The notes under the pieces were generated by a model that searched no databases, was not told where the DNA came from, and saw only the letters and a list, made by a program, of their open reading frames with translations. From Flavobacterium sp. (GTDB lineage: Bacteria; Bacteroidota; Bacteroidia; Flavobacteriales; Flavobacteriaceae): a stretch of 64,000 nucleotides of DNA. Numbering within the stretch: the stretch's first letter is position 1; every line of letters begins with the position of its first letter. The translations under genes and the position numbers were made by a program. Positions 12,015-43,555 of the stretch are shown piece after piece. Location of the stretch: assembly GCF_028689845.1 (NCBI RefSeq), contig NZ_JAQVCH010000013.1, forward strand, positions 1 to 64,000, given 5' to 3'.

Positions 12015-12551
12015 TTATTCTAATTCAGTATATGTTACTTCACCATTCACTATTCTGGCTGGCGAGGTATAAGGATGCTCCTGAACTTTTTCAATGGCCA
12101 TAATATGTAAAACGGTCCATCCTTTTGCTTTGAGATAATCCGAAACCATCGACCGATGACAACGCCACCATACCGCTTCAGAACACATAAAAGCTGTTGT
12201 TTGCTCTAACGCAAGTTGTTCTAATTCGACAATTCCTTTTTGAAAGGATTCTGTTTCCATATAATCGGCATAACCTCGAAAGGAATCATTATTCCAACGG
12301 GTGTTTTTGGAGTCTTTTTTTACTTTCCTTCTTCCGCCTAAATCGGGTAAATGAAAATATTGAATTCCAATTTCTTCCAAAGATATTTTTAAAGCTTCTT
12401 TGTTGAATTGTGGAAACTTTCGCGAACTAGGAAAACTGCGAATATCAGCTAAAGTTTTAATGTCAAAAGAATTCAGCATTTGCACAAATTCCTCCAAACT
12501 ATGGGTCGAATGCCCGATGGTGTAAATGAGGTTTGTGGCAGCGTTTTTCAT
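12015..12551 (-). CDS. DUF488 domain protein
   Basis: A 178-residue soluble protein with the DUF488 signature 'IYTIGHSTHSLEEFVQML' and 'IRSFPSSRKFPQFNKEAL', plus the conserved 'MCSEAVWWRCHRSMVSDYL' carrying Cys and His residues in the family's putative active site. The biochemical role is unknown. Its ATG overlaps the stop of the SMUG2-like gene (ATGA), so the two are translationally coupled. Confidence 0.85.
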   Translation of the reverse strand: MKNAATNLIYTIGHSTHSLEEFVQMLNSFDIKTLADIRSFPSSRKFPQFNKEALKISLEEIGIQYFHLPDLGGRRKVKKDSKNTRWNNDSFRGYADYMETESFQKGIVELEQLALEQTTAFMCSEAVWWRCHRSMVSDYLKAKGWTVLHIMAIEKVQEHPYTSPARIVNGEVTYTELE

Positions 12552-13243
12552 TTTAAGGAATTCAAGGTTAGTATATATTTATCGATAAAGAACTGGTTTT
12601 CTTTTGATTTATATTGCTGAATATACCTGGGATGTTCAAGTACAGTTAGCCGATCAAATAGTTGAGCTTCTTTATTTAATTTATTAATAAAGGTCGCGTT
12701 TTTCTTTCCTAATATAAAAACCTCCGAAGTGTCTAATCCCAAATTAATAGTTTGTTTTAAGCAAGTCATCATAAAATCTTTGACTATTTCAAATAGAAAA
12801 GGGTCATCATAATAATTTGCATTTATCCAATTTCGTTCTTTAGTCTGACGGATAATCGCCAAGGGAAAAGGGGAATTAATATAAAATTTATTATAAAAAT
12901 TTGTAACGCCACCAAATTCAGTAATCATATCATACATAAACACAGAAGAAACTTCATGTGTGTGTGCGGATTTCATTTTGATGCCACAGTTGCTTTCTAG
13001 TCGTTTAGTGTCTGTAAAAGGAACACCTGTAACACCAGCACCGTGGCGACTTGGGTTGATGCCAATAATAAACTTTCGAGTGTTTGAATCGGCATAAAAT
13101 TGGTTGTAAAATTGTTTCATGACGACCATTGTTTCCGGATTATCCAGATACGGATTGAGCACTTGAAAACCTTCCGGAAGTTGTCCCGAGTAGCTTAAAT
13201 GACGATTGAAATCAATCACTTTTTCTCCAAAGGTTGTTGACAT
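12548..13243 (-). CDS. SMUG2-type uracil-DNA glycosylase family protein
   Basis: A 231-residue protein with a uracil-DNA glycosylase superfamily fold. Motif A is visible as 'FIIGINPSRHGAGVTGVPFTD' (about 79-98) and motif B as 'VLEHPRYIQQY' near the C-terminus, matching the SMUG2/DUF4918 group. The expected role is removal of uracil or another damaged base from DNA, starting base excision repair. It heads an operon with DUF488 and DUF2945 genes. Confidence 0.8.
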   Translation of the reverse strand: MSTTFGEKVIDFNRHLSYSGQLPEGFQVLNPYLDNPETMVVMKQFYNQFYADSNTRKFIIGINPSRHGAGVTGVPFTDTKRLESNCGIKMKSAHTHEVSSVFMYDMITEFGGVTNFYNKFYINSPFPLAIIRQTKERNWINANYYDDPFLFEIVKDFMMTCLKQTINLGLDTSEVFILGKKNATFINKLNKEAQLFDRLTVLEHPRYIQQYKSKENQFFIDKYILTLNSLK

Positions 13244-39664: not shown

Positions 39665-39692
39665 AAACCGCTATTTTATTAGCGGTTTTTTT
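39665..39692 (+). terminator. Terminator of lpdA
   Basis: AAACCGCTA-TTTTAT-TAGCGGTTT followed by TTTT. Confidence 0.9.
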
Positions 39693-39800: not shown

Positions 39801-40457
39801 ATGTCGTTAGGGAATATTAAAAGTCAAGTTGAAAAGCTGCATCATCAAATTTTAGAATGTGCTCAAAATTCGAGTGAAATTAATTCATTATATAAAGGAT
39901 GTCAAATTTGGTATAGTCCAATTCTACTAAAACCAAAAGTTTTGCTCATTGGTTTTAATCCAGGTGCGGGTTATTATAATTGGGAAGGGAAAATAGTAGA
40001 ACAATTTGAGCCTTTAAACGCCTTAGAATATTATTTGACCGATCATTCATTAGCCAAACAAACTATAAAGCTTTTTCAAATCATGGAAAAAGAAGATGTA
40101 TTAAAATATCAAACGGTTAAAACTAATTTTTACTTTTTTGCAACGTCAAATGTGAGTGATTTTAATAAATTGACCAAGCTTTTACCTAAAGAATTGTCTA
40201 CACAATTATTTCATTTTGCTAGAGTTTGGATAAAGCAGCTAATAGAAACCTTAGAACCCGAATTAATTTTGTGTGAAGGAACAGTTTCCTTTGCTGAAGT
40301 TGCTGTTTTGTTTGACGATAAATTTGCTCAAGAAAGCAGTACTTACCATCAGCAATTCAAAACAGCTAAAACCATTGTTTTTAGTTATAAACGCAACCAA
40401 AGCAGTATTATTGATAAGGAGCAGGTCGCATTAATTCTTAGAAATCTTGTAAAATGA
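39801..40457 (+). CDS. Uracil-DNA glycosylase-fold protein of unknown function
   Basis: A 218-residue soluble protein. 'KPKVLLIGFNPGAGYYNWEGK' (about 49-69) resembles motif A of the UDG superfamily (G-x-N-P-G), and 'LEPELILCEGTVSFAEVAVLF' matches the strand that precedes the final active-site block. At the expected motif B position the protein reads 'TIVFSYKRNQSSI' without the His-Pro-Ser of active glycosylases, so catalysis may be lost or altered. Its stop codon overlaps the ATG of a 40-codon ORF, and a membrane-protein gene follows 9 bases after that. The call rests on a short motif and is tentative. Confidence 0.5.
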   Translation: MSLGNIKSQVEKLHHQILECAQNSSEINSLYKGCQIWYSPILLKPKVLLIGFNPGAGYYNWEGKIVEQFEPLNALEYYLTDHSLAKQTIKLFQIMEKEDVLKYQTVKTNFYFFATSNVSDFNKLTKLLPKELSTQLFHFARVWIKQLIETLEPELILCEGTVSFAEVAVLFDDKFAQESSTYHQQFKTAKTIVFSYKRNQSSIIDKEQVALILRNLVK

Positions 40458-40576
40458 AAAACATAATTTTAAACTTTTTAGAAAAATATTATCAAAAAAA
40501 CACAAAATCACGTTTGTGGTTGAATGTTTTTGTAAAGGTTTTACTATTTTTGATTATTATTATATATTTTTTTTAG
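40454..40576 (+). CDS. 40-residue single-helix membrane miniprotein
   Basis: Too short for the ORF track. The ATG overlaps the stop of the UDG-like gene (ATGA) and the TAG is 9 bases before the next start, so it fills the space between two genes exactly. The product begins 'MKNIILNFLEKYYQKNTKS' (basic, amphipathic) and ends with a hydrophobic helix 'LWLNVFVKVLLFLIIIIYFF' reaching the last residue. Translational coupling and the transmembrane composition argue for a real gene, perhaps a small membrane partner or toxin-like peptide of the downstream protein. Confidence 0.6.
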   Translation: MKNIILNFLEKYYQKNTKSRLWLNVFVKVLLFLIIIIYFF

Positions 40577-40585
40577 CAATTATTT

Positions 40586-41641
40586 ATGGAACAAAATCTA
40601 CCACAAGGCATAGAAACTATGCAACAAGCTTATGATGTTGTTGATACTTTAAGTAAAGAAACATCTGGTGTAATTCAAAAGGCATTAAGAGCACAACTTG
40701 CCGTTATTCAATTGATTCAAAAACCAATTTTAGTAAGAACATGTATAGATACGGTTTTTGAAAACTTACATCAAGGTATTGAAGAGGCAACTAATGATTC
40801 GGAGATTAAATTGATGCGGCAACAGTCAGCTCTTTTAGTTCAAAGTACATTGTTTTTTTTTCAGGCGACAATTTTAAAAAATAAAAAAGAAAATAAAGAA
40901 GAAGGCAAAGAGTTGTTTAGAATTGCAACTCAGAACGTAGCTAGTTTTTCTGTTCAAATTTCTGAAACTGTTGCGAAAGGTATGTTAATAGGTGGTACAG
41001 CATCCGCTGCGTCCTTGGCTTTAGAAGTTGGAATTCCCTTAATTAAGAATTATTTTGAGAATAAAAAAGAAATAGAAAAAAATTTACCTGAGGAAAAAAA
41101 AGAAATGTTTCATAAACGATTTGTAAATTTCGTTTATGGATATTTTGAAAACAGCAAAGAGGAAGAGGAATATTTAAAACTTTTAGATAGTGTTTTTGAT
41201 AAATTTGAACGCAACAAAATGCTTTTGGGGAAATCAATTTTACTTTCTGAATTAATTATGAATAATTATCAGGATATTATAAACTTTAAATTAAAAACAG
41301 ATATTGATTTCTTGATAAAAAAGCAAAAGGAAATAGAAAGTATTAAAAATAATATATTTCGTGGATGGTATTTATTAATATACCCGTTTATTTTATTAGC
41401 ACTTTTAATTACATACATTATTGATTATTTTGCAAAGACAACTATCATAGAATCCTATTATATTGGTTACTGGTTGCTTTTCCCTATTCCAATTTACATT
41501 TATAAATATTTCAAAAATAGCATGAAAAAGAAGAAGCTATTAAATGAAGTAAATGGGATGGAAATTGCTCTCAATGAGAAAAAAGCTTCCTTAATTCATA
41601 AATACGAAAGTATTTCGAAAACTTTGAATCCGTATTCTTAA
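40586..41641 (+). CDS. Membrane protein of unknown function, third gene of the UDG-like unit
   Basis: A 351-residue protein. The N-terminal 130 residues are helical and soluble ('GIETMQQAYDVVDTLSKETSGVIQKALRAQLAVIQLIQ'). A small-residue-rich hydrophobic stretch 'AKGMLIGGTASAASLALEVGIPLI' (about 131-154) could enter a membrane. After a charged helical segment, two clear membrane helices follow ('WYLLIYPFILLALLITYIIDYF' and 'IIESYYIGYWLLFPIPIYIYKYF', about 263-310), then a basic cytoplasmic tail. I do not recognise the family. Codon use is more AT-rich than in the flanking metabolic genes, and the unit is inserted between lpdA and an FMN reductase gene. Confidence 0.6.
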   Translation: MEQNLPQGIETMQQAYDVVDTLSKETSGVIQKALRAQLAVIQLIQKPILVRTCIDTVFENLHQGIEEATNDSEIKLMRQQSALLVQSTLFFFQATILKNKKENKEEGKELFRIATQNVASFSVQISETVAKGMLIGGTASAASLALEVGIPLIKNYFENKKEIEKNLPEEKKEMFHKRFVNFVYGYFENSKEEEEYLKLLDSVFDKFERNKMLLGKSILLSELIMNNYQDIINFKLKTDIDFLIKKQKEIESIKNNIFRGWYLLIYPFILLALLITYIIDYFAKTTIIESYYIGYWLLFPIPIYIYKYFKNSMKKKKLLNEVNGMEIALNEKKASLIHKYESISKTLNPYS

Positions 41642-41692: not shown

Positions 41693-42232
41693 ATGCCAAC
41701 TCTTTTAGCTTTTGCAGGAAGCAATTCTTCTACTTCAATCAATCACCAACTCGTTACTTATTTAACGACACAAGTAAAAGAAACCTCGTTTGAATTATTC
41801 AACTTATCCGACATGGATTTGATTATTTACAGCGAAGACGAAGAACGCGAAAATGGTTTTCCCTCGTCAATCAAACAAATATATAAACACATTCAAGCGT
41901 CTAAAGGACTTTTAATTTCGGTTAATGAGCACAACAGTAATCCGTCTGCATTTTTTAAAAATGTCTTAGATTGGTTATCGCGTTTGGATAGAAAATTTTT
42001 AGAAGGAAAGAAAATATTTTTGCTTAGTGCTTCAACAGGAGCTCGAGGGGCAATAGGTTCGCAAGAAGTGGTGCATCAACTTATCCTTCGATTTGCTGGG
42101 GAAGTGGTAGATACGTATGCTTTTCCGAGTTTTAAAGATAACTTTTCTGTAGAAAATCAGCAGATTAGCAATGCAGAAATCAATCAGGATATTTTATCCA
42201 AATTGGCTCAGTTTGAAAACCAATTGAAATAA
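41693..42232 (+). CDS. NADPH-dependent FMN reductase family protein
   Basis: A 179-residue flavodoxin-like reductase. 'LLAFAGSNSSTSINHQLVTYL' is the FMN phosphate loop, 'ASKGLLISVNEHNSNPSAFFKNVLDWLSR' the second FMN-contact block (usual form TPEYN.S.PG.LKNA.DW), and 'KKIFLLSASTGARGAIGSQEVV' the third. It reduces FMN or quinones with NAD(P)H. The Pro-Glu-Tyr-Asn of the family reads N-E-H-N here. It lies 6 bases ahead of pabB. Confidence 0.87.
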   Translation: MPTLLAFAGSNSSTSINHQLVTYLTTQVKETSFELFNLSDMDLIIYSEDEERENGFPSSIKQIYKHIQASKGLLISVNEHNSNPSAFFKNVLDWLSRLDRKFLEGKKIFLLSASTGARGAIGSQEVVHQLILRFAGEVVDTYAFPSFKDNFSVENQQISNAEINQDILSKLAQFENQLK

Positions 42233-42238
42233 CGTTTG

Positions 42239-43555
42239 ATGCTTAGAACTGTAAAAAGCTTTACGCTGGATAATCCTATTTTCTTTCAAGCCAATTTGTT
42301 AGAATGGGCCAATCAATTCCGTGAAGTGGTGTTTTTAGATTCCAATCAGTATCCACAAACCTATGGCAGTTATGATGCAATACTCGCTGTTGATTCGTTT
42401 ACCTCGTTACAAACGGATTATTTCCATGCTTTCGATGATTTGCAACAATACCAAAGTCAGACCAAAGACTGGTTATTTGGCTATTTGTCGTATGATTTAA
42501 AAAACGATACAGAAGCGTTGACTTCCAAAAATTTTGATGGTTTAGCTTTTCCTGATTTATATTTTTTTCAGCCCAAAAAGTTGTTTTTGATAAAAGACAA
42601 TAAAATTGAATTACATTATCTGCGACTTTGCGATGAGGAACTAGATTCTGATTTTGAAGCGATTACTTCAGCCCACAACCTACAACCCACAACCCACAAC
42701 CTACAACCCACAACCCACAACCCACAACCTTTCTCAATCCAACAACGCATTTCGAAAGAATCGTATATTGAAAAAGTATCTAAAATGCTAGAACACATTC
42801 ATCGTGGTGATATTTATGAAGCCAATTTTTGTATGGAATTTTATGCTGAAAAAGCAATTGTTAATCCAATAGAAACCTATAAAAAACTTAATCTAATTTC
42901 AGAACCTCCTTTTGCGGTTTATTTTAAAAATAACCAGCATTATTTGCTCTCGGCATCACCCGAACGCTATTTGAAAAAAGAGGGAACGAAAGTTATTTCT
43001 CAACCGATAAAAGGGACTTCAAAACGAAATGAAAATGCTGAATTAGATGCACAGTCTAAATTTGATTTAGAAAATAATTCCAAAGAAAGAGCTGAGAACG
43101 TGATGATTGTCGATTTAGTTCGCAATGATTTATCACGTACGGCTACCAAAGGTTCGGTTGCAGTAGAAGAATTATGTCAGAGTTACACCTTTAAACAAGT
43201 GCATCAATTAATTTCGACGGTCGTTTCTGAAGTAGAAAATTCTACTTCTCCGCTAGAAATTATTAAAACTACTTTTCCGATGGGAAGTATGACGGGAGCT
43301 CCAAAAATTTCGGCCATGAAAATCATCGAAGCGTTAGAAGAAACCAAACGCGGATTATACAGCGGAGCCGTTGGCTACTTTTCTCCTGAAGGCGATTTTG
43401 ATTTTAATGTGGTGATTCGTAGTATTTTATATAATGCTAAAAATCAATATCTTTCTTTTTCTGTCGGTAGTGCCATTACTTCAGAAGCTTCCCCAGAAAG
43501 TGAATACGAAGAATGCCTGTTAAAAGCAAAAGCAATGTTTGAAGTGCTTCAATAA
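42239..43555 (+). CDS. pabB: Aminodeoxychorismate synthase component I with an internal heptamer repeat
   Basis: A 438-residue chorismate-utilising enzyme that, with a PabA amidotransferase not present here, makes 4-amino-4-deoxychorismate for folate. Conserved blocks: 'EKVSKMLEHIHRGDIYEANFCMEF', 'ASPERYLKKEGTKVISQPIKGTSKR', 'VMIVDLVRNDLSRTA', 'TFPMGSMTGAPKISAMKIIEALE', 'RGLYSGAVGYFSPEGDFDFNVVIRSI', 'SVGSAITSEASPESEYEECLLKAKAM'. The 'PIKGT' block separates PabB from TrpE only partly, but the absence of trp genes favours PabB. Between the N-terminal and chorismate domains is an added segment 'HNLQPTTHNLQPTTHNPQP' encoded by a 7-base tandem repeat. The ATG at 42239 is preferred over TTG 42236. 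Confidence 0.88.
   Translation: MLRTVKSFTLDNPIFFQANLLEWANQFREVVFLDSNQYPQTYGSYDAILAVDSFTSLQTDYFHAFDDLQQYQSQTKDWLFGYLSYDLKNDTEALTSKNFDGLAFPDLYFFQPKKLFLIKDNKIELHYLRLCDEELDSDFEAITSAHNLQPTTHNLQPTTHNPQPFSIQQRISKESYIEKVSKMLEHIHRGDIYEANFCMEFYAEKAIVNPIETYKKLNLISEPPFAVYFKNNQHYLLSASPERYLKKEGTKVISQPIKGTSKRNENAELDAQSKFDLENNSKERAENVMIVDLVRNDLSRTATKGSVAVEELCQSYTFKQVHQLISTVVSEVENSTSPLEIIKTTFPMGSMTGAPKISAMKIIEALEETKRGLYSGAVGYFSPEGDFDFNVVIRSILYNAKNQYLSFSVGSAITSEASPESEYEECLLKAKAMFEVLQ
42672..42727 (+). repeat. Heptamer tandem repeat (CCCACAA)8 inside pabB
   Basis: Eight consecutive 7-base units, CCCACAA or CCTACAA, in the order C-T-C-C-T-C-C-C at the third position. Three units equal 21 bases (seven codons), giving the protein repeat HNLQPTT. 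One unit more or less shifts the reading frame. Confidence 0.9.

Follow-up and report, generated by a model that had tools for sequence, protein, structure and literature searches.

A UDG-fold protein of a rare flavobacterial family, encoded at a variable genomic site, is a candidate antiphage DNA glycosylase

Organization of the three-gene stretch

The window, a 64,000-nucleotide stretch of a Flavobacterium sp. contig (NZ_JAQVCH010000013.1), contains a gene (positions 39801..40457, + strand) encoding a 218-residue protein of the UDG superfamily. In the interpretation that we favour, at about even confidence, this gene encodes a horizontally acquired glycosylase of a divergent UDG clade, which would block an invader through base excision in the manner of the Brig proteins, and the genes downstream of it are passengers or helpers. 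The stop of the gene forms an ATGA overlap with a mini-ORF of 40 codons (40454..40576, + strand), which is followed after a 9-nt gap by the gene for a 351-residue protein (40586..41641, + strand). All three ORFs thus lie where the preliminary description of this DNA, which had pointed to the ATGA overlap and the 9-base gap, had placed them. Its remark on AT-rich codon use in the unit also holds, as the G+C contents of the 218-residue protein gene (0.31), the mini-ORF (0.17) and the 351-residue protein gene (0.28) are low compared with those of the neighbouring genes (0.33–0.40). Codon-usage scores trained on the window genes support that the first and third genes are coding, with in-frame values of +0.24 (218-residue protein) and +0.27 (351-residue protein) bits per codon and negative values in the other frames. 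None of the families in the PADLOC 2.0 HMM set matched any of the three products.

Fold and conserved motifs of the 218-residue protein

The profile PF03167 was matched by 7 of 7 aligned family members (best 5.7e-5); the window protein alone scored 16 bits, under the 24.3-bit cut-off. An AlphaFold2 model calculated from seven sequences (pLDDT 88.5, pTM 0.87) was compared with the PDB using Foldseek, and all 47 matches at E≤1e-3 were SMUG1, TDG/MUG, UNG-type or family-4 UDGs, with UdgX just below this limit. The TM-scores of the model to UDGs were approximately 0.4–0.57. According to the model, the protein carries the UDG alpha/beta fold, as the preliminary description had proposed, and these matches exclude an unrelated fold.

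Motif 1, an Asn in motif 3 and a motif 2 that in many cases starts with HP define the UDG families (PMC10776899); the functional residues of SMUG1 at the corresponding places are N85, N163 and H239...R243 (PMC13230825). In the 218-residue protein, motif 1 is GFNPGAG, and its G51-N53-P54-G55 (GxNPG) are invariant across the seven sequences. Motif 3 is K107-x-N109, in which the invariant N109 ends the second main strand (E105-109). The motif-2 position reads F-S-Y196-K-R198-N-x-x-S202 and, according to the alignment and the AlphaFold2 model, Y196-x-R198 is placed between the last strand and the last helix. The second motif had been described as missing; the usual HP is indeed absent, but a Y-x-R conserved across the family stands in its place. 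Further invariant columns of the alignment include P153, C158-E159-G160, Y196 and R198, and the six other members are only 29–36% identical to the window protein.

Because its motif 2 is Y-x-R rather than HP (N, M or S in families 2 and 6), the 218-residue protein fits none of the numbered UDG families and belongs to the superfamily by fold only. SMUG1 and SMUG2 (family 3) resemble it in their motif 1 (GxNPG or GINPS), the motif-3 Asn and an Arg just past the motif-2 position, and SMUG1 is the best Foldseek match of the model. By contrast, the 218-residue protein lacks the motif-2 His (H239), shares approximately 13% identity with SMUG1/SMUG2 and has a patchy rather than a core distribution; motif 1 is the only similarity detectable between the profiles of SMUG2 and the family. 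TDG/MUG (family 2) share the NPG of motif 1, and both TDG/MUG and HDG (family 6) have a motif 2 without His. Their motif 2, however, is NPS/MPSS or PSTSPAN (NPSG in MUG-type and PSTSPAN in HDG-type sequences of flavobacterial relatives), and hhalign gave no full-length match of the 218-residue family to TDG/MUG or HDG. MUG, TDG and HDG are active glycosylases despite a motif 2 without His, and the missing His is therefore no proof of inactivity.

Distribution and gene neighbourhoods of the family

The UDG-fold family is rare and patchy. Of 299 other genomes from the genus, 4 contain it, G433 in two copies; in the family sample, 1 of 300 others does. Homologues were absent from the plasmids, phages and viral contigs searched. 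Defence genes lie near 4 of the 6 other copies, a count that was made post hoc on six loci only. One copy of G433 (contig 51, L037) is accompanied by an integrase, hsdM/hsdS and a GmrSD-type endonuclease, with a SoFic-like gene 94 bp downstream; the other (contig 119, L039) has cas1 186 bp away, and cas2. In G499 (L038), an AbiEi-Fic gene 110 bp away is followed by hsdR, hsdS and hsdM, and in G055 (L005), a DUF4062 gene 248 bp upstream matches PADLOC PDC-S60, a defence candidate. The copies in G524 and G591 (L006 and L008) have Zn-ribbon proteins upstream and no clear defence neighbours, with a PIN-domain protein near the G591 copy. The window copy is surrounded by housekeeping genes, and no recognised defence gene adjoins it.

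Since each of the six genomes has just 1–6 places with N6-methylases, chance is an unlikely explanation for the closeness of N6-methylases at two loci and of cas1-cas2 at a third. Binomial values for this closeness are illustrative, as the per-locus chances (4–10%) were of our choosing and the count was post hoc. With the same limit on the count, the defence flavour noted in the preliminary description is supported by these neighbourhoods.

A 127-residue protein that lacks a Pfam match adjoins the UDG-fold gene at two loci (L038:8131-8514 and L039:2754-3137). The other neighbours differ between the two genomes (type I restriction genes versus cas1-cas2), and the 127-residue protein is possibly a functional partner of the UDG-fold protein. 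Similar tandem zinc-ribbon segments lie upstream of the UDG copies in L006:2897-3580 and L008:2168-2419 (- strand), ending in KHQPAL and HHSPAL, respectively. A divergent, possibly frameshifted UDG copy in G451 (L040:9428-10159) is located between hemE and hemF and is another insertion into a housekeeping cluster. Four loci (L041-L044) were rejected as family members because their alignment was limited to the C-terminal half; two of them encode distant UDG-like proteins (family f18; L042:7234-7857 and L043:7841-8596) near type I restriction genes identified by eye, the former directly downstream of a predicted hsdR. Weak profile matches in G343 and G372 were also rejected, as inspection by eye showed unrelated ORFs of approximately 305 residues beside a polysaccharide-exporter-like gene.

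The mini-ORF and the 351-residue protein

The mini-ORF encodes a basic peptide with a single C-terminal hydrophobic helix, which ranks second in hydrophobicity among the 82 window ORFs of 35–60 residues. In a simulation, the chance of an ORF of at least 38 codons in this gap was approximately 0.02, and that of a strongly hydrophobic one was 1.5e-4; the latter value comes from a first-order model, which takes no account of long T-runs, a source of hydrophobic codons. The codon score of its own frame was not separable from that of frame 3, and no convincing relative was found in six genomes, including that of the host. The ORF of the membrane miniprotein proposed earlier is only moderately beyond chance and is unconserved in these six genomes; it may be a real gene.

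The 351-residue product had been described as a multi-helix membrane protein. It is instead mostly polar and helical, with one clear transmembrane stretch (approximately residues 257–288), a weaker one directly after it (approximately 287–305) and a weak hydrophobic stretch at residues 132–153, which is not typical of a multi-pass protein. Searches of 301 genomes from the family, 300 from the genus and 178 from the order, and of GTDB contigs, IMG/VR, plasmids, phages and the PDB, returned no relatives, and by these searches the protein is an ORFan. An AlphaFold model built from the single sequence was of low quality (pLDDT 49) and did not enter the fold search.

Proposed function and alternative explanations

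Brig1 and Brig3 are antiphage DNA glycosylases, and the abasic sites that they leave block the replication of the invader (PMC11078745, PMC13160076). The 218-residue protein is like them in being a single small protein with a UDG-like glycosylase fold (as reported for Brig), in its motif 1, which resembles the active-site Asn-Pro of Brig3 (N50-P51 of N50-P51-S52; PMC13160076), in having relatives near defence genes, just as homologues of Brig1/Brig3 accompany further defence genes within defence islands, and in being extra to the repair UDGs of the host. This likeness rests on fold, Asn-Pro and context, not on a sequence relationship. The motif-2 region differs from that of classical UDGs, there is no BapA-like partner, unlike in Brig, and the family was found in flavobacteria, while Actinobacteria are the reported source of most Brig1 homologues. 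By analogy, the predicted glycosylase would flip a non-canonical base, at best guess a modified base in invading phage DNA, out of the DNA; the motif-1 Asn53 would hydrolyse the glycosidic bond of the flipped base; and the resulting abasic sites would block replication of the invader. The mini-ORF and the 351-residue protein would be co-transcribed passengers or lineage-specific helpers that the family mechanism does not require. Several observations weigh against this interpretation: the window copy has no recognised defence gene beside it, two of the six other copies lack clear defence neighbours, PADLOC has no model matching the protein, and the HP usual in motif 2 is absent, so that activity is extrapolated from MUG, TDG and HDG.

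One alternative, which we consider rather unlikely, is that the protein is an accessory base-excision repair glycosylase carried on mobile DNA that has no antiviral role. True repair UDGs have the same fold and motif 1, and the UDG superfamily is mainly a repair superfamily; the rarity and patchy distribution of the family, however, and the defence-gene neighbours of most of its members argue against this explanation. Moreover, a third UDG for general repair is unlikely to be needed, because UNG (G000:C20) and a SMUG2-type enzyme are already present in the host. The gene for the latter lies in the window (12548-13243, - strand; motifs GINPSRHG and HPRY; 7.6e-63 to PDB 5h0j) and encodes an ordinary enzyme native to the host; next to it is a gene identified by eye as DUF488-like. 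It is also improbable that the protein is non-catalytic and uses the UDG fold to bind a base or nucleotide, for example as a sensor or regulator. The altered motif 2 and the moderate TM-scores to true UDGs are compatible with such a protein, but the catalytic-type Asn53 and the base-reading Asn109 remain invariant in the seven sequences despite the low identity of the other six to the window protein. With both residues invariant, an active glycosylase is more probable than a base sensor that has lost catalysis.

The preliminary description had drawn an analogy to abortive infection, in which the UDG-fold protein would sense a base or nucleotide signal, and the miniprotein and the 351-residue protein would damage the membrane. 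The ATGA overlap, the 9-nt gap and the low G+C common to all three genes are consistent with such a module, as is the presence of same-strand membrane proteins beside the UDG copies in L007 (182 residues, overlapping ORFs) and L036 (246 residues). These neighbours, however, are unrelated to the 351-residue protein, and the four other copies lack any. The three genes are neighbours in no other genome searched, so that the unit is unique to this genome, and the partners differ at the other loci. Since the 351-residue protein and the mini-ORF had no relatives in the collections searched for each and the membrane neighbours elsewhere are unrelated, the three genes do not make up a conserved system. 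A sensor-plus-membrane-effector module in this one genome is possible, has no comparative support and, in our estimate, is unlikely. A variant of the favoured antiphage interpretation, in which a new UDG clade with a Y-x-R motif 2 excises a base of Bacteroidota phages and has here recruited the membrane miniprotein and the helical, membrane-anchored protein as a tethered or abortive second arm, is a long shot.

Base excision was established as an immune strategy only recently, with Brig1 and Brig3, and in the literature considered we found no description of it from the phylum of the flavobacteria. If the antiphage interpretation is correct, a separate UDG clade, linked to defence islands and carrying a substituted motif 2, would extend base-excision immunity to this phylum and would point to a base modification in its phages. 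If the three genes formed one system, for which support is weak, base recognition would be joined to membrane action.

Insertion site between lpdA and pabB

The three-gene stretch lies between lpdA and pabB. In 15 relatives from which both flanking genes were recovered, this interval ranges from 167 bp without a gene (L033) up to 3.5 kb, is filled with DoxX-like, lipocalin-like, DUF4349-like and other genes (named by eye, not by HMM), and contains none of the three window genes. The varying length and gene content indicate that lpdA-pabB is a tolerant insertion site. An NADPH-dependent FMN reductase-like gene flanks the stretch in the window (41693..42232, + strand; PF03358, E=3.2e-25) and is itself variable, being beside pabB in one relative (L045) and missing there in most. 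Thus, the earlier view of an island between lpdA and the FMN reductase gene is retained as to island-like, horizontal acquisition, which the comparison supports, while the variable site is redefined as lpdA to pabB. No convincing flanking repeats or att sites were found around the unit.

A terminator-like hairpin of 9 pairs follows lpdA at 39665..39688, with a T-run after it on the + strand; the scan lists it on the - strand, and the + strand reads AAACCGCTA..TAGCGGTTTTTTTG. It hints that the unit may be separated from lpdA transcription, in which case transcription probably starts from a promoter belonging to the unit; shuffling of the region yielded 1.5 such sites on average, and the hairpin count is not beyond chance. 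A short tandem repeat (CAACCCACAACC-like) at 42616-42798 of the window lies within the pabB-type gene (42236-43555) and codes for THNLQPTTHNLQPTTHNPQP.
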